Origin: a virus
Virus record (IMG/VR): IMGVR_UViG_3300044618_002782
Coordinates: 64,001 to 128,000 of that record
Strand: one strand, 5' to 3'
Length of the DNA: 64,000 nucleotides
Below the pieces are notes generated by a model that saw only the letters and a list, made by a program, of their open reading frames with translations, ran no database searches and had not been told where the DNA came from. Below are positions 9,343 to 16,706 of the stretch, piece by piece; within the stretch, counting starts at the first letter, position 1, and the number at the start of each line of letters is the position of its first letter. Position numbers and translations under genes: made by a program.

Positions 9343-10287
9343 TTGTCATCAACAACTCCCATAACAACAATCGTAATTAAAAAACCCGGCAGAGTCAATT
9401 ATCTCAACAACAGAGATTTGCTGAAACAGATTCACCTCAGCAAGAACACCTACTGCGCCTATCGTGACCCTGTAACAGATCATCAGTATGATATCATTTT
9501 GCCCAGCCTTGATCGAATCAATCAGCGCACTGTGGCTGAAGCCAGACGCAACCGTGCTGATCGTATCAAACGAGAAACAGGCGAAATTGTCAATGACAAG
9601 AAAATACCCAACACAGATCTAGTGTTTAGAATCACCTGCTGGGAACACATACCGTGGGCACCCAAAAAAGAACCCAAACCGGTGGGCAAAAAGAAACAAC
9701 TCAAAGACATGCTGGAACTAGAAGATCCGGTAGAAGATCCCTTAGCCGATATTGTAGACGAAATTGTACTAGACCCCACTCATGTGCGTGTAAACTTTCC
9801 TCCGTTTTATCATTATCGTATTACAGAAGATAAAGACCCGTATCTTGTGGGTAAAAGCCATTGGCGCGGTGATTTAGAAACAGGCGAATACTGCCGCGAC
9901 CACGGAGACATGACAGCCGAACTGGCCAGAATGTTTTTGAAACTATGTGAACGTTATGCCACACGTAGCAATTGGCGTGGCTACACTTACAACGAAGAAA
10001 TGCGTGGTCAAGCCCTGTTACAGTTAAGTCAAATTGGTCTGCAGTTTGACGAAAGCAAAAGCCAGAACCCGTTTGCCTACTATACTGCTGCTATCACCAA
10101 TTCGTTTACTCGTATCTTAAATATTGAAAAGAAAATGCAAAACATTCGTGATGATATACTAGAAATGAACGGGCTTAATCCTAGCTGGACTCGACAGAAT
10201 TCAGGAAAACCGCATCAACAGCCGGGACCGGTCACTGTGCTTGATCCAGCTGATTTCCAAGCCCAAGAAGACGCTCGACAGCAATAA
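9343..10287 (+). CDS. 55: Late transcription sigma factor gp55, with extended N-terminal half
   Basis: gp55 redirects host RNA polymerase to TATAAATA late promoters. The C-terminal third carries the diagnostic region: TYNEEMRGQALLQLSQIGLQ, then DESKSQNPFAYYTAAITNSF and a DDILEMNGLNPSWTRQN tail, as in T4 gp55 and its cyanophage relatives. T4 gp55 is about 185 residues; this one is 314, with an extra N-terminal part containing a charged Lys/Glu-rich linker (about residues 105-140). The start codon is TTG with a good AGGAGA ribosome site; no ATG is available nearby. An early promoter precedes it, and the many late motifs in the window are its expected targets. Confidence 0.92.
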   Translation: MSSTTPITTIVIKKPGRVNYLNNRDLLKQIHLSKNTYCAYRDPVTDHQYDIILPSLDRINQRTVAEARRNRADRIKRETGEIVNDKKIPNTDLVFRITCWEHIPWAPKKEPKPVGKKKQLKDMLELEDPVEDPLADIVDEIVLDPTHVRVNFPPFYHYRITEDKDPYLVGKSHWRGDLETGEYCRDHGDMTAELARMFLKLCERYATRSNWRGYTYNEEMRGQALLQLSQIGLQFDESKSQNPFAYYTAAITNSFTRILNIEKKMQNIRDDILEMNGLNPSWTRQNSGKPHQQPGPVTVLDPADFQAQEDARQQ

Positions 10288-10362: not shown

Positions 10363-11379
10363 ATGAGTAATCTATTTCGAAAAGTAGCAGTTTGCACCGA
10401 CATACACTTTGGTCTCAAGAGCAACAGTCTACTGCACAATCAAGACTGCGAACAATTCATCGATTGGTTTATTGCCACTGCTCGAGCAAACGGTTGCGAA
10501 ACTGGCATGTTTCTGGGCGACTGGCATCACCATCGAGCCAGTATCAATCTGCAGACCCTGAACTTCAGCTTGCGAGCTTTAGAAAAGCTGTCGGCTGCAT
10601 TCGATCAATTTTATTTTATCCCGGGCAATCACGATCTCTACTACCGAGATCGGCGTGACATACACGGTGCCGAATGGGCTAGACACTTGCCCAATATACA
10701 AATTGTCAACGACTGGTTTCAATCGGGAGATGTTGTAATTGCTCCGTGGTTAGTGGGCGACGATTACAAGCGTATACCAAAATTATCATCCAAATATGTG
10801 TTTGGGCACTTTGAGTTGCCGCACTTCAAGATGAATGCCATGGTGGAAATGCCCGATCACGGCGAAGTCAAGGTTGACAGCTTCAGCGGCATTGAGTCTG
10901 TGTTCAGTGGACATTTTCATCTTCGCCAGCAAAAGAAAAACATCAACTATATCGGTAACTGTTTTCCCCACAACTTTGCCGACGCCGGCGATGATGCACG
11001 TGGCATGATGGTGCTGGACTGGGGTTCGGAGCCGGTTTATCATGCTTGGCCTGGACAACCGTTATATCGAGTGTACGGCTTGAGTCAGGTGATTGATAAT
11101 GCAGACAATCTGTTATCACCTGGCATGCATGTGCGTGTTCAACTGGACATTGAGATCAGTTACGAAGAAGCTAATTTTATCAAGGAAACATTTGTCAAGG
11201 ACTACCATCTGAGAGAAATGGCCCTGATACCCAGCAAGAGTGCTGCTGTTGACACCGACATGGCTCCAGGCGAGGTCAAATTTGAAAGCGTGGACCAAAT
11301 TGTTACAGATCAGATCACTGCCATCGAAAGTGAGTTCTATGATCCTAAACTACTACTAAAAATATATCAAAACTTATGA
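10363..11379 (+). CDS. 47: gp47-like recombination endonuclease, Mre11/SbcD subunit
   Basis: This is the metallophosphoesterase subunit of the gp46-gp47 complex, which resects DNA ends for recombination-dependent replication. Motifs are in order: DIH at 13-15, GDWHH at 52-56, GNHD at 88-91, a histidine at 149 (FGHFE) and GHFH at 183-186. These are the metal ligands of the Mre11 family. Length (338 aa) matches T4 gp47. Unlike in T4, the gp46 gene does not follow directly; a radical-SAM gene starts in the ATGA overlap at its end. A palindrome-covered promoter precedes it. Confidence 0.93.
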   Translation: MSNLFRKVAVCTDIHFGLKSNSLLHNQDCEQFIDWFIATARANGCETGMFLGDWHHHRASINLQTLNFSLRALEKLSAAFDQFYFIPGNHDLYYRDRRDIHGAEWARHLPNIQIVNDWFQSGDVVIAPWLVGDDYKRIPKLSSKYVFGHFELPHFKMNAMVEMPDHGEVKVDSFSGIESVFSGHFHLRQQKKNINYIGNCFPHNFADAGDDARGMMVLDWGSEPVYHAWPGQPLYRVYGLSQVIDNADNLLSPGMHVRVQLDIEISYEEANFIKETFVKDYHLREMALIPSKSAAVDTDMAPGEVKFESVDQIVTDQITAIESEFYDPKLLLKIYQNL

Positions 11380-12515
11380 ACCTTGATACTTTTTGTGTTA
11401 ATCCGTGGATTACATTACATGCTAAGTTCAACGAAGGAATGAATCCGTGTTGCTTGTTTAAAAATGTATTCAAATATAACACCGTTGATGAATATGTAAA
11501 CAGCGAAGAGTTAAAGTCAATTAAGAAAAGTATTGTCGATGGGGAAAAAATACCCGAATGCAGTGTTTGTTGGAGGCAAGAGCAGAGTGGTCATGTCAGC
11601 AAACGACAACGCGACAATAAAACTTATGACAAAATTTTTAAAATTTTAAACAAAGATTTAATCAAGCCGGCTAATAAATTTGTCGAATATTATCTACGAC
11701 TAGGAAATCATTGTAATCTTAGGTGTACCAGCTGCAACGATCAATATAGCACGGGTTGGGCAAGTGAAAATAAAAAATTTAATCTGCCGGTCATGCCTGC
11801 TGTGTTGCTGTCAGAGGACTCCGATGTCTGGCAGAATCTCAGAGATCATGCCAGTACAGTAGGTGCAATTGAATTCATTGGCGGCGAACCTTTTATGATG
11901 TGCATAGATCAGCAAGCCGAGTTATTAGAATGGTTGGTTGACAACAACCATGCACAACATATTAGAATCAAGTACAACACAAACGGAACACGATTACCAA
12001 CCGAACAGCTATTGTTTTGGCACAAATTTAAAGCTGTCGAATTAAACATCAGCGTCGACGGTGTTGGTAAACAATTTGAATATCTAAGATTTCCTGCCAA
12101 GTGGGATGAGTTAAATTCAAATGTTAGATTTTATCAAAATCTAAGAAACAGTGTGCCTAATTTAGAATTGACAATCATCACTACAGTTAGTATACTAAAC
12201 ATTGGGTACATAGAAGAAATTTTAGATTATTGTCAATCTTATGATTTAAAATTATTTTTTAACATGCTCGATCAACCTGCTGTTCTAAACTTGTACAATT
12301 TTGATGCCAGCGTTAAATCTTGGATTTTAAGCAGAATACAGCACATAAATCATCCGGTTATTAAAAACATTGTTGAGAATTTGAATCAGCGAGTATCAAC
12401 AGTCAATGGTCGATCACTATTGAATTTTCTCGGGCCCTTGGATGAGAGAAGAAATTTAAATATGTCTGACACGTTTCCTGAATTAATAAAATTTTTACAT
12501 GATAACTCGAATTAA
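11376..12515 (+). CDS. Radical SAM protein with N-terminal twitch-type cysteine domain
   Basis: A 379-aa radical-SAM enzyme. The [4Fe-4S] motif CNLRCTSC (C113, C117, C120) follows RLGNH, and a glycine-rich SAM-binding motif IGGEP follows near 170. Before the core is a cysteine domain of the twitch type: FCVNPW (C7), PCC (C25, C26) and ECSVCW (C62, C65), able to hold an auxiliary cluster. Enzymes of this layout often modify peptides or proteins, but the substrate here is unknown and no precursor peptide is visible nearby. Its ATG overlaps the gp47 stop (ATGA), so it is co-translated with gp47. The codon composition is A/T-richer than in gp47, which fits acquisition by transfer. Confidence 0.88.
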   Translation: MNLDTFCVNPWITLHAKFNEGMNPCCLFKNVFKYNTVDEYVNSEELKSIKKSIVDGEKIPECSVCWRQEQSGHVSKRQRDNKTYDKIFKILNKDLIKPANKFVEYYLRLGNHCNLRCTSCNDQYSTGWASENKKFNLPVMPAVLLSEDSDVWQNLRDHASTVGAIEFIGGEPFMMCIDQQAELLEWLVDNNHAQHIRIKYNTNGTRLPTEQLLFWHKFKAVELNISVDGVGKQFEYLRFPAKWDELNSNVRFYQNLRNSVPNLELTIITTVSILNIGYIEEILDYCQSYDLKLFFNMLDQPAVLNLYNFDASVKSWILSRIQHINHPVIKNIVENLNQRVSTVNGRSLLNFLGPLDERRNLNMSDTFPELIKFLHDNSN

Positions 12516-12543
12516 AAATTTAACTATACATAAGTCTTCTGAA

Positions 12544-12572
12544 TTGATGCAGTTAAAAACATGTTGCATCAA
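12544..12572. promoter_or_regulatory. Inverted repeat between radical SAM gene and gp46
   Basis: TTGATGCA and TGCATCAA, perfect 8-bp arms around a 13-nt spacer, in the 85-nt gap before gp46. No T-run follows, so it is not an ordinary terminator; operator or RNA processing site are possibilities. Confidence 0.45.
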
Positions 12573-12600
12573 CATTACAAAATAGCCTTAGAAAAAGACC

Positions 12601-14364
12601 ATGATCAAAATTAAAAATTTAACTGTTAAGAATTTTATGAGTGTAGGTAATGCTACACAAGGCGTTAACTTTGATCGGCGCGATCTTACTCTGGTGTTAG
12701 GTGAAAATCTAGATCTTGGTGGCGACGGTAGTAGAAACGGCACCGGCAAGACCACAATCATCAATGCTTTAAGTTATGCCTTGTATGGCACTGCCCTTAG
12801 TAACATTCGCAAAGACAACTTAGTCAACAAGACCAACGGCAAGAACATGCTGGTCAGTTTGGACTTTGCAGTCAGAGGCCAGGAGTATCGAATCGAACGC
12901 GGTCGTAAACCCAATGTATTGAAGTTCTATGTGGATCATAAAGAGCAAGCGATCACCGATAACTCACAGGGCGACAGTCGAGAAACACAAGATGCTATCG
13001 AACACACACTGGGTCTTAGCCACGACATGTTCAAGCACATCCTGGCTCTCAACACTTATACAGAACCGTTTCTCAGTTTAAAAGCCAACGAACAACGTAC
13101 TCTAATTGAGCAACTGCTGGGCATTACCTTGTTAAGCGAACGTGCTGATCGTATCAAGGAACTAAACAAAGCCACCAAGGACGGAATCCAGCAAGAAGAA
13201 TTTCGTATACGTGCTGTACAAGAAGCCAACAAGCGCATCGAAGAACAGATCGAAAGCTTGTACAAGCGGCAGCGTATGTGGACTGCTAAACGCAACGAAG
13301 ATGTTGAAAAACTGAACTTGGGCATTTCTAGTTTAGAGCACATCGACATTGACGCCGAAGTTGCAGCACACCGCGATCTAGAACAATTTCATGCCAAGAA
13401 AAAATCTATCGATGAACACTCTCGCTGGATCAGAAGTATACAAAGCGACGATGCCAAGTTGGAAAAGTTGGTTGCCAAACTCAAAGCAGAGATTGCTGCG
13501 CTAGATGCCCATCGTTGCTATGCGTGTGGACAAGACATTCACGACCACAAGCAAGACGAAATTCGCAACAGCAAGCAGGCTTCGTTGCAAGAAACTGCCT
13601 TGCAATTGCTGGCCAATAATACACAACAGATGGAGCACGAAAACGAACTGGAAGATCTTGGTGAACTAGGAACAGCACCACGTGTGTTTTATGACACATT
13701 GGAAGATGCACTCAACCATCGCAACAGCTTGGAAAGTTTGAAAAAAGAACTGGCCACTAGAAGTCAAGATTCAGATCCCTATGCCGAACAGATCCAAGAC
13801 ATGCAGCAACAGGCCCTGCAGGAAGTCAGCTACGATCACATGAACGACTTGACAAGGCTGCAAGAACATCAAGAGTTCCTGCTCAAATTATTGACCAGCA
13901 AGGATTCTTTTATACGTAAAAAAATCATTGAACAAAATCTCAGTTATCTCAACTCAAGACTCACACACTATCTGGATCGCATCGGCTTGCCGCATACAGT
14001 GGTATTTCAAAACGATCTTACAGTCAGCATCGAAGAGCTGGGCAGAGAACTGGATTTTGATAATCTCAGCCGAGGCGAACGCAATCGCCTGATCTTGAGC
14101 ATGAGCTGGGCATTCAGAGATGTGTTTGAAAGTCTATATCAACCTATCAACTTGTTGTTTATTGACGAAATGATCGACAACGGACTAGACACACAAGGTG
14201 TCGAAAACAGTTTAGGCTTGTTAAAACAAATGAGCAGAGAACGCCACAAGAGTATTTGGCTAGTCAGTCACAGAGACGAATTGGCTGGACGTGTGGAGAA
14301 TATTTTAAAAGTCATTAAAGAAAATGGATTTACCAGTTACAACACCGATATCGATGTTGCGTGA
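12601..14364 (+). CDS. 46: gp46-like recombination endonuclease, Rad50/SbcC subunit
   Basis: The ATPase partner of gp47. Walker A lies at about 43-52 (GSRNGTGKTT), the zinc-hook motif CYACGQ at about 305-310 in the middle of two long coiled-coil arms, the ABC signature NLSRGERNRL near 488 and Walker B LLFIDEMIDNGLD near 518. The 587-aa length fits T4 gp46 (560 aa). The gene is separated from gp47 by a radical-SAM gene and its 3' end overlaps the second radical-SAM gene, so the nuclease and the enzymes are transcribed together. Confidence 0.94.
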   Translation: MIKIKNLTVKNFMSVGNATQGVNFDRRDLTLVLGENLDLGGDGSRNGTGKTTIINALSYALYGTALSNIRKDNLVNKTNGKNMLVSLDFAVRGQEYRIERGRKPNVLKFYVDHKEQAITDNSQGDSRETQDAIEHTLGLSHDMFKHILALNTYTEPFLSLKANEQRTLIEQLLGITLLSERADRIKELNKATKDGIQQEEFRIRAVQEANKRIEEQIESLYKRQRMWTAKRNEDVEKLNLGISSLEHIDIDAEVAAHRDLEQFHAKKKSIDEHSRWIRSIQSDDAKLEKLVAKLKAEIAALDAHRCYACGQDIHDHKQDEIRNSKQASLQETALQLLANNTQQMEHENELEDLGELGTAPRVFYDTLEDALNHRNSLESLKKELATRSQDSDPYAEQIQDMQQQALQEVSYDHMNDLTRLQEHQEFLLKLLTSKDSFIRKKIIEQNLSYLNSRLTHYLDRIGLPHTVVFQNDLTVSIEELGRELDFDNLSRGERNRLILSMSWAFRDVFESLYQPINLLFIDEMIDNGLDTQGVENSLGLLKQMSRERHKSIWLVSHRDELAGRVENILKVIKENGFTSYNTDIDVA

Positions 14365-15217
14365 CATAAGAGTCTTGCATGTAGAGCCAACAGATGTTTG
14401 TCAAGCATCGTGCCCTTTGTGCAGTCGTGTTACTGACCCGGCGTTTGATGCTAGTGATCAACGTCATTTAACTGTAGAACAATTATCTACTGCGATCGAT
14501 CCTGCTGTCTTGTTGAATCTCGACAAGATGTTTACATGTGGTAACTACGGAGATCCTGCTGCAGGACAACACACACTGGAGTTGTATCGTTACCTACGTT
14601 CTATCAATCCTGCCGTTACTCTGGGCATGAACACCAATGGCGGTCTTCGCAATCGAGATTGGTGGCAAGAATTGGCCGTCATACTCAACCAATCGCGTGA
14701 CTATGTTGTGTTCAGCATCGACGGATTAGCCGATACTAATCACATTTACCGTCGTGGCGTTGTCTGGGACAAAGTTGTGGAAAATGCACAGACATTCATC
14801 GACGCCGGAGGTTCTGCGCATTGGGATATGTTGGTATATCAGCACAATCAACATCAAGTAGATCAAGCACAAAAATTGGCCAAGGAAATGGGATTCAGTT
14901 GGTTTCGTGCCAAAATATCCAAAAGACCGTTGGCTAACGGATTAGCACTGCCAGATCAATGGCAATCAGTCGACCAGTTATCTGGAACTATAAAGTGTCA
15001 TGCTCTAACAGAACGCAGCATTTATATAGATGCCAGAGGAGTAGTTAATCCTTGTTGCTGGTTAGGCAATACAAAAATACACACGGAATTAGATTTTAAT
15101 GACATACAAAAATCGTGGCAATCAGTGCCTCATCCAGTGTGTCAATCTGCATGTTCTAGTAGGAACAACTCAACAAACTTTTCTAATCAATGGCAAAAGG
15201 AAGTGCAACTATGCTAG
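14354..15217 (+). CDS. Second radical SAM protein (SPASM-like C-terminus)
   Basis: The cluster motif VCQASCPLC (C16, C20, C23) stands near the N-terminus after HVEPTD. A GNYGDP motif about 50 residues later is the SAM-binding loop, and FSIDGL marks a later strand of the barrel. The C-terminal cysteines (KCHAL, NPCCW, VCQSAC) look like a SPASM/twitch auxiliary-cluster domain. Two starts are possible: ATG 14324, 41 nt inside gp46, or ATG 14354, 11 nt inside gp46; I chose 14354 because the protein then begins MLRDIRVLHVEPT, right at the first barrel strand. Neither has a clear ribosome site, so it probably depends on gp46 translation. Substrate unknown. Confidence 0.85.
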   Translation: MLRDIRVLHVEPTDVCQASCPLCSRVTDPAFDASDQRHLTVEQLSTAIDPAVLLNLDKMFTCGNYGDPAAGQHTLELYRYLRSINPAVTLGMNTNGGLRNRDWWQELAVILNQSRDYVVFSIDGLADTNHIYRRGVVWDKVVENAQTFIDAGGSAHWDMLVYQHNQHQVDQAQKLAKEMGFSWFRAKISKRPLANGLALPDQWQSVDQLSGTIKCHALTERSIYIDARGVVNPCCWLGNTKIHTELDFNDIQKSWQSVPHPVCQSACSSRNNSTNFSNQWQKEVQLC

Positions 15218-16239
15218 CATGGGATCACTGGCATATTGAGGCCAGTAGTATTTGTGCATTGAAATGTCCGCGATGTCCCAGAGCAGAAGCAGCAGAATCT
15301 TTGTTGAATCAACAGTTATCATTGGAATTCTTCAAAACACAAATTGGCAGTGAAACTATAAAACAAATTCGGAAAATAACATTTTGCGGTAATGACGGCG
15401 ATCCTGTATACTGTAAAGACTTTGTAGATATATGCCAGTGGATTAAAGAAATTAATCCTGCTATGAACTTAGTTATTGTAACTAACGGAAGTTACAAATC
15501 CGCAGAATGGTGGACTAAGTTAGCTGGTGTGTTAAATGAGCGTGACGAGATTAACTGGAGTATCGATGGTTGGGATCAACTCAGTAACGAAAAGTATCGA
15601 ATTAATTCTGATTGGCTCAGTATCGAGCAAGGCATAAAGACTTTCTTTGCTCACAACTGTAGCACTTATCGAACTTGGGCTTCTATAGCATTTAGATTCA
15701 ATCAGAATCAAATTCTTCATCAACAGCAGGTTGCCGGTGATCTTGGATTTGATTTGTATCAGCTGACAAAAAGCACTAAGTTCGGCAGTAAATACCCAGT
15801 TGCCTATGGCAGCAATGATTTGCTGGAACCCACTGATGCTTCCTTGGTAGCAGCAGGACACAGATTTGAACGTCAATTAATATCCTTGAGCAGCAAAATA
15901 CGTCCTGGAAAAGAACTAAAAGTATTATTTTTACAGAGAGCAACACAATTACAACAGGCAGCACAGTTTTCAGGCATTTGTTTGATAGGAAATAAAGGAG
16001 TATTTTTAAACAGTCGCGGCGAGTTTTTTCCTTGCTGCTGGACTGCTAACAGATACGAACATAACAGCAACTGGTTACAACAAGCAAAAGAAAAATTCAA
16101 TCTCAATACAAAAACATTTTCTGAAATTATCAATGACTCTTTTTGGACTACAGAATTTTTAAAATTTGACAGCATGGAGTGTACTACTAAATGCACAGCA
16201 TCACGTTTATCTGACTTGGATCACACAACCGAGTGGTAA
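15211..16239 (+). CDS. Third radical SAM protein (SPASM-like C-terminus)
   Basis: A paralogue of the preceding enzyme: ICALKCPRC (C15, C19, C22), then CGNDGDP and WSIDGW in the same order. The C-terminal half holds CLIGNKGVFLNSRGEFFPCC and ECTTKC, a SPASM-like cysteine set. An upstream in-frame ATG at 15190 exists, but AAGGA lies 9 nt before the ATG at 15211, which also overlaps the previous stop by a few bases; 15211 is the better start (342 aa). The shared architecture suggests that the second and third enzymes arose by duplication and work together or on related substrates. Substrate unknown. Confidence 0.86.
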   Translation: MLAWDHWHIEASSICALKCPRCPRAEAAESLLNQQLSLEFFKTQIGSETIKQIRKITFCGNDGDPVYCKDFVDICQWIKEINPAMNLVIVTNGSYKSAEWWTKLAGVLNERDEINWSIDGWDQLSNEKYRINSDWLSIEQGIKTFFAHNCSTYRTWASIAFRFNQNQILHQQQVAGDLGFDLYQLTKSTKFGSKYPVAYGSNDLLEPTDASLVAAGHRFERQLISLSSKIRPGKELKVLFLQRATQLQQAAQFSGICLIGNKGVFLNSRGEFFPCCWTANRYEHNSNWLQQAKEKFNLNTKTFSEIINDSFWTTEFLKFDSMECTTKCTASRLSDLDHTTEW

Positions 16240-16277
16240 TTTTATTTGGACAATAGATGTATTGCATAACTATACGC

Positions 16278-16706
16278 ATGACATGGTACCACAATGGACA
16301 AGAAGTAGTCGAACTGCCCGAGGATTGCGTTGGATTTGTTTATCTTATTACCAATGTTGTTACCGGGCGCATGTATGTGGGGAAAAAATTAGCAAAGTTT
16401 TCAAAAACAACTTATAAAACTGTAAAACTCAAGAATGGCAACAAGAAGCGTAAAAAAATTCGAAGTAAAATAGATTCTGACTGGCAACAATACTACGGCA
16501 GCTCCCCAAATCTCACAGAAGATATCACACAGCAAGGCACAGACAATTTCCGACGCGAAATATTATACTACTGTCGATCACGATCCGAATGCTCGTACAT
16601 AGAAGCCAGAGAACAGTTCTCCAGGCGGGTACTGGAATCAGATGACTACTACAATGGTCACATTCAAGTGCGTGTGCATGGATCACACATAAAAAACAAA
16701 CTTTAA
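16278..16706 (+). CDS. GIY-YIG-like nuclease-family protein
   Basis: A 142-aa protein whose first half reads VGFVYLITNVVTGRMYVGKK, the GIY-YIG core with FVY and YVG in the key positions. It continues with a basic stretch (KNGNKKRKKIRSKIDSDWQQ), YYGSS, and an FRREILYYCRSRSECSYIEA segment. This gene family is common in T4-like phages of aquatic bacteria and differs from the homing endonucleases elsewhere in the window: it has no NUMOD repeats. I chose ATG 16278 over 16257 because family members start just before the W-Y-N-G motif. Role unproven: a DNA-processing enzyme is likely. Confidence 0.72.
   Translation: MTWYHNGQEVVELPEDCVGFVYLITNVVTGRMYVGKKLAKFSKTTYKTVKLKNGNKKRKKIRSKIDSDWQQYYGSSPNLTEDITQQGTDNFRREILYYCRSRSECSYIEAREQFSRRVLESDDYYNGHIQVRVHGSHIKNKL

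Follow-up and report, generated by a model that had tools for sequence, protein, structure and literature searches.

A cassette-exchange slot rich in radical-SAM genes around gp46 of uncultured T4-like viruses

Gene order at the locus

The window, a 64,000-base stretch of DNA, covers positions 64001-128000 in a virus record of 160,607 bases. It carries a late sigma factor gene, the recombination nuclease genes gp47 and gp46, and a gene for a SegE-type endonuclease (segE). Three genes for radical-SAM (rSAM) proteins, here called rS1, rS2 and rS3, lie between gp47 and segE (Table 1). The sigma factor gene, which is syntenic with the 'sigma factor for late transcription' of Deifobo, and segE are the borders of what we refer to as the slot. 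PHROG labels the family of the segE gene 'NAD synthetase', apparently in error.

Table 1. Features of the slot, in window coordinates
Feature	Position	Strand	Evidence or remark
Late sigma factor (gp55-like)	9343..10287	+	phrog_12791 E 1.2e-74; upstream slot border
gp47, SbcD/Mre11-like nuclease subunit	10363..11379	+	PF00149, phrog_100 E 6e-60
rS1, N-terminal-twitch radical-SAM protein, between gp47 and gp46	11376..12515	+	NF033640 299.7 bits
16-bp direct repeat copy 1, across rS1 stop	12510..12525	+	Repeat search
gp46, SbcC/Rad50-like ATPase subunit	12601..14364	+	phrog_77 E 1.9e-98, PF13476
16-bp direct repeat copy 2, within gp46 start	12609..12624	+	Repeat search
rS2, radical-SAM protein, C-terminal twitch	14324..15217	+	phrog_21308; alternative ATG 14354
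rS3, radical-SAM protein, C-terminal twitch	15190..16239	+	phrog_21308 E 1.2e-23; alternative ATG 15211
SegE-type GIY-YIG endonuclease, downstream slot border	16257..16706	+	PF19835 113 bits

The start of rS1 lies within the ATGA that ends gp47, a four-base overlap, and 85 bases separate its stop from gp46. rS2 starts inside gp46, the overlap being 11 bp if translation begins at the downstream ATG. The first-pass annotation had described all three genes as overlapping gp47 or gp46 by a few bases. This holds for rS1 with gp47 and for rS2 with gp46, but rS3 overlaps rS2 in the window genome, and it is in many other genomes that rS3 overlaps gp46 directly. As the same annotation had noted, no open reading frame beside the three genes fits a precursor peptide, the gaps being only 85 and 17 bases long. 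A 16-base repeat (AATTAAAAATTTAACT) spans the stop of rS1 and recurs at the gp46 start; it is probably a recombination scar.

Three radical-SAM proteins of two lineages

All three proteins combine a CX3CX2C motif, a partial TIM barrel and a SAM-binding motif, the features by which the radical SAM superfamily is recognised. Pfam PF04055 matches rS1 (E 6.8e-7), rS2 (4.9e-9) and rS3 (1e-3); the last is below the Pfam cut-off, yet the core cysteines of rS3 are invariant in 35 sequences. These cysteines are C113/117/120 in rS1. In rS2 and rS3 they are C26/30/33 and C22/26/29 when counted from the upstream ATGs, or C16/20/23 and C15/19/22 from the downstream ones (14354 and 15211). The SAM loop is IGGEP in rS1, CGNYGDP in rS2 and CGNDGDP in rS3, so that GNxGD replaces GGE in the latter two. 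Together with matches to NF033640 and phrog_21308, this bears out the initial identification of three CX3CX2C proteins with SAM loops, including their cysteines.

Outside the core cluster, which is invariant in alignments of 48 rS2, 35 rS3 and 33 N-terminal-twitch (N-twitch) sequences, each protein has one further set of conserved cysteines. In rS1, C7/C26/C62/C65 lie N-terminal to the barrel and are invariant in the 33 sequences. In rS2, C225/C244/C273/C277 lie C-terminal to it and are invariant in the 48, and rS3 has an equivalent set in its 35 sequences, where C282 is nearly invariant. Each protein thus has one four-cysteine twitch domain. The twitch precedes the barrel in rS1 and follows it in rS2 and rS3, and on this domain order the proteins fall into two lineages, as first proposed.

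Family assignments follow the same division. rS1 belongs to NF033640, a family with the twitch before the barrel (E 3.4e-89, 299.7 bits against a cut-off of 170, residues 4-373); no paper in the literature searched mentions this family. rS2 scores 38.2 bits against it and rS3 is absent from the match list, so neither is a member. Both match phrog_21308 (E 6e-23 and 1.2e-23), and neither reaches the cut-off of any curated family. The N-terminal domain of rS1 matches the twitch profile of BtrN (2-deoxy-scyllo-inosamine dehydrogenase; E 1.2e-5 to 3e-5), which has the same four-cysteine type of twitch. However, the BtrN twitch follows the barrel, and whole-protein similarity to rS1 is low.

For rS2, an AlphaFold2 model (pLDDT 90) was compared with the PDB by Foldseek. 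The best match was BlsE, a cytosylglucuronate decarboxylase (E 3.4e-12, TM 0.61, 19% identity), making this the nearest solved structure to the model, by structural resemblance only. SuiB, SkfB, viperin, anSME and MoaA followed in that order, SuiB and SkfB being only slightly poorer matches; the resemblance is remote in every case. The profile and structure searches that the first-pass annotation had recommended thus placed rS1 in NF033640, rS2 and rS3 in no curated family, and the rS2 fold nearest to BlsE.

Linkage to gp46

For rS2, scans of IMG/VR recovered 463 relatives, and for rS3 they recovered at least 545; the loci of the best 80 per scan were read. Among those selected by rS2 alone, the gene lies directly on gp46 in 116 of the 120 with upstream sequence, and within 2.6 kb in the other four. 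Of 80 loci selected by rS3 alone, 43 abut gp46 (36 by a four-base ATGA overlap), 28 have one rSAM gene between gp46 and rS3, and six have other genes between. Overall, rS3 adjoins gp46 or is one rSAM gene away in 71 of the 80; three lack an upstream gp46, and in one of these three the contig ends there. The linkage to gp46 noticed in the window is therefore real and widespread.

Selection by gp46 itself gives the complementary view. Of 75 such loci, 50 have an rSAM gene between gp46 and segE. The arrangement between gp47 and gp46, for which a survey of T4-like relatives had been suggested, is found in 15 of 74, and the slot holds no rSAM gene anywhere in 21 of 69. The density of rSAM genes is about sevenfold higher in the slot (113 in 499 kb) than in the flanks (15 in 463 kb). 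In the PA5oct-like phages, the isolates closest in gp46 and terminase, sigma factor, gp47 and gp46 follow one another with nothing between.

Cellular genomes were scanned at one genome per species (approximately 85,000 prokaryotic species) with two short patterns, by which only fairly close relatives are detectable. The single rS2 relative found lies on contig NZDU01000042.1, filed under a 'Pacearchaeota' metagenome-assembled genome. This contig lacks gp46; its rS2- and rS3-like genes are separated by about 8 kb, and it looks like a misbinned viral or phage-derived contig. In the data searched, rS2 and rS3 thus represent two large rSAM families that are almost confined to viruses and anchored to gp46. 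No description of them was found in the literature searched, an absence that is not in itself proof.

Gain, loss and exchange of cassettes

The stretch from the sigma factor gene through gp47 and gp46 to segE is a slot for cassette exchange in a large group of uncultured T4-like viruses. This follows from the scattered presence of the rSAM genes, their weak tracking of gp46, and the content of the closest relative. In a phylogeny of 64 gp46 proteins, the presence of rS2 requires 18 changes (shuffled mean 19.0) and that of rS3 requires 14 (16.6). Pairwise distances correlate at r 0.67-0.74 between gp46 and gp47, but only at 0.35-0.45 between gp46 and rS2 and at about 0.3 between gp46 and rS3. 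In the closest relative of the window genome (L015), gp46 and gp47 are 95% and 96% identical at the protein level and are joined by ATGA, with no rS1 and no rS3, and its rS2 is only 54% identical. DNA identity there drops at the end of gp46, from about 0.9 to 0.55-0.75, and rises again in segE.

The linkage of rS1 to rS3 with gp46 is thus positional rather than functional. Functional coupling through co-inheritance with gp46 was not supported, since tree changes resemble those of shuffled data and distances correlate weakly. The earlier proposal that the enzymes are tied to the nuclease also sits poorly with the absence of rS1 and rS3 from L015, with the 21 of 69 loci that lack rSAM genes in the slot, with the bare gene order of the nearest isolates and with the location of most of the genome's rSAM genes outside the slot. 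Its further suggestion that the enzymes may act in sequence was not supported, because rS2 hardly tracks rS3 (r 0.21) and a sign test for their joint presence was not significant.

Cargo other than twitch rSAMs is also found in the slots of other viruses, including B12-type rSAMs, a 2OG oxygenase, a PLP-enzyme-like gene, an amidinotransferase-like gene, glycosyltransferase (GT)-like genes and several unknown families. Accessory cassettes, mostly rSAM genes, enter at two junctions, gp47/gp46 and gp46/segE, and are joined to their neighbours by ATGA-type or short overlaps, so that they can be read from the operon. The viruses acquire, drop and substitute cassettes without displacing gp47 and gp46; rS1, rS2 and rS3 are three such cassettes, whose core and auxiliary cysteines are intact. 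The conserved gp47, gp46 and segE genes probably supply the homology for exchange, and cutting by the SegE-like endonuclease might drive the process. The border gene is a PF19835 member resembling the T4 Seg-type GIY-YIG endonucleases, and its GIY-YIG-type residues are conserved in 138 copies, although cutting and gene conversion by its product are putative here. SegE is evidently unnecessary for the presence of rS2 or rS3, since one or other occurs in 16 of the 19 loci in which no segE could be recognised.

Radical-SAM genes and sugar-related clusters

The window genome has 11 rSAM genes, nine of them NF033640 members (rS1 included), and 19 relatives have between 3 and 21 each. Six of the NF033640 genes form a cluster (C1:26.6-40 kb) that also contains GT-like genes and a carbamoyltransferase and that adjoins further GT-like genes and an amidinotransferase. 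Near this rSAM/GT-like cluster (C1:21.8-40 kb), and outside the window, lies a 4691-codon open reading frame on the minus strand (C1:47819-61894), which probably encodes a very large tail fibre or adhesin.

A similar rSAM/GT-like cluster is present in four other genomes, three of which also have the amidinotransferase. In these four, 19 of 49 rSAM genes adjoin a GT-like gene, compared with 3.6 expected from shifting. This test leaves out the window genome and the carbamoyltransferase, and it is the one to trust because it was partly next to rSAM genes that these gene classes had first been noticed. An association with GDSL/SGNH-like genes, suspected from the neighbours, was dropped, as these are not enriched beside rSAMs (3 of 60 against 2.8 in five genomes).

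The clustered GT-like proteins may be GT10-like glycosyltransferases, the top fold matches of the family being fucosyltransferases, albeit weak ones (E 1e-3, model pLDDT 74.5). A domain of about 120 residues is found alone, at the N-terminus of long N-twitch rSAMs, or at the N-terminus of GT-like proteins (L255:3898-4269, L228:2609-2980, L243:675-1058). The amidinotransferase resembles SxtG and inosamine-phosphate amidinotransferase. Genes for a nucleotide-sugar dehydratase, a sugar C-methyltransferase and methyltransferases also lie beside rSAM genes, and Pelagibacter phage Mosig has an rS3-like gene in the midst of genes annotated as aminotransferase, carbamoyltransferase and methyltransferase. 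Further rSAM neighbours (G000, G001, G002, G003 and G015) include ferritin, rubrerythrin and FeoA domains and two PTPS (QueD-like) matches, the latter a hint of a 7-deazaguanine pathway in some relatives.

Possible functions

We favour the reading that rS1 to rS3 belong to a set of sugar- or glycan-tailoring enzymes for which gp46 and gp47 are a harbour and not a partner, and give it a probability of about 0.5. The set would consist of N-twitch rSAMs, GT10-like transferases, the amidinotransferase and the carbamoyltransferase, encoded near the giant tail-fibre-like gene. By analogy with BtrN and BlsE, the enzymes may act on a sugar or nucleotide-sugar, by oxidation, epimerisation or some other change, and the outcome might be a changed surface glycan of the infected cell or virion. 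Membership of such a toolkit is more likely than a tie to the adjoining nuclease because of the clusters with GT-like, amidinotransferase and carbamoyltransferase genes, the rSAM-GT adjacency, the domain shared by long N-twitch rSAMs and GT-like proteins, the sugar-gene neighbours, the BtrN and BlsE matches and the Mosig context. Counterpoints are the weak fold match behind the GT assignment, the lack of GDSL/SGNH enrichment beside rSAMs, and the presence of rS2 or rS3 in most loci without segE. The rS2 model is also only slightly less like the peptide maturases SuiB and SkfB than BlsE. Furthermore, rS2 and rS3 are not of the same family as the N-twitch rSAMs in the cluster and hardly ever lie apart from gp46; if gp46 is a pure harbour, exchange through flanking homology must account for this.

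A protein or nucleic-acid substrate, as first suggested, is possible. Modification of a virion or host protein encoded elsewhere, such as the 4691-residue tail-fibre-like product, is a rather unlikely alternative that draws on the twitch/SPASM architecture, on the presence of SuiB, SkfB and anSME among the best folds of rS2, and on the rSAM cluster near the giant gene. However, SPASM peptide maturases are recognised by two auxiliary clusters (about seven cysteines) and an adjacent precursor peptide gene, whereas rS1 to rS3 each have only four conserved auxiliary cysteines and no small open reading frame beside them. No maturase family is matched at its cut-off, and the neighbours are GT-like, amidinotransferase and carbamoyltransferase genes, not genes for peptide export or proteases.

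That the enzymes make a small nucleotide or metabolite directed against viruses or the host, in the manner of viperin or of natural-product pathways, is improbable. The BlsE match, the likeness of the amidinotransferase to SxtG and inosamine-phosphate amidinotransferase, and a weak similarity to viperin and its prokaryotic relatives (pVip) are consistent with it. A viperin-like defence identity was nevertheless rejected, since scores against NF038283 were 29.3 and 24.1 bits (cut-off 180), and the twitch domain lies outside the viperin-matching part of the rS proteins.

It is most improbable that the enzymes modify the gp46/gp47 nuclease or the DNA at its ends, for example by a radical-made crosslink or altered residue: near-confinement to the 3' side of gp46, overlaps suggestive of translational coupling, and the single prokaryotic relative on a phage-looking contig speak for a functional linkage, but presence is scattered, co-divergence with gp46 is weak, many viruses with similar gp46 lack rS2 and rS3, and the slot also takes non-rSAM cargo. 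Nor was any thymine hypermodification gene (ThyA-type, HMU DNA kinase by the HMUDK-helical family, or TET/JBP) found in the record, which is possibly incomplete, although no control scored in the searches for the last two families. An elaboration in which rS2 and rS3 are made by translation coupled to gp46, and their allele swapping reflects an arms race over the modification, is equally hard to credit.

Relation to other radical-SAM-rich phages

T4-like phages rich in rSAM genes are already known. A T4-like virus with 12 such genes has been published (Nishimura 2017, PMC5332604), and pelagimyophages carry rSAM cassettes in a hypervariable host-recognition island with LPS-type glycosyltransferases (Zaragoza-Solas 2020, PMC7029224). 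These marine phages resemble the window genome in having many rSAM genes in the company of glycosyltransferases. Pelagimyophages, however, are a different lineage, and the available text of the two papers yielded no description of the gp46-anchored families or the slot. A viral Fe-S A-type carrier, as in the Nishimura virus, is absent from the window's record. What is new is the near-exclusive position of rS2 and rS3 behind gp46 in IMG/VR.

The slot illustrates the exchange of enzyme cassettes inside a T4-like core operon that stays unbroken, and the set of GT-like proteins, amidinotransferase and carbamoyltransferase suggests that these viruses make or decorate unusual sugars. The 3' end of gp46 provides a precise handle for mining hundreds of rSAM enzymes from environmental data. 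Frequent slot genes of other kinds include the families x15, x19 and x31 (L089:4106-4921, L136:2232-3185 and L026:2304-3185), which encode partly related proteins of about 270-320 residues without database matches. Family x15, for which Pfam, PHROG and PDB searches returned nothing, has an invariant glycine-rich N-terminus.
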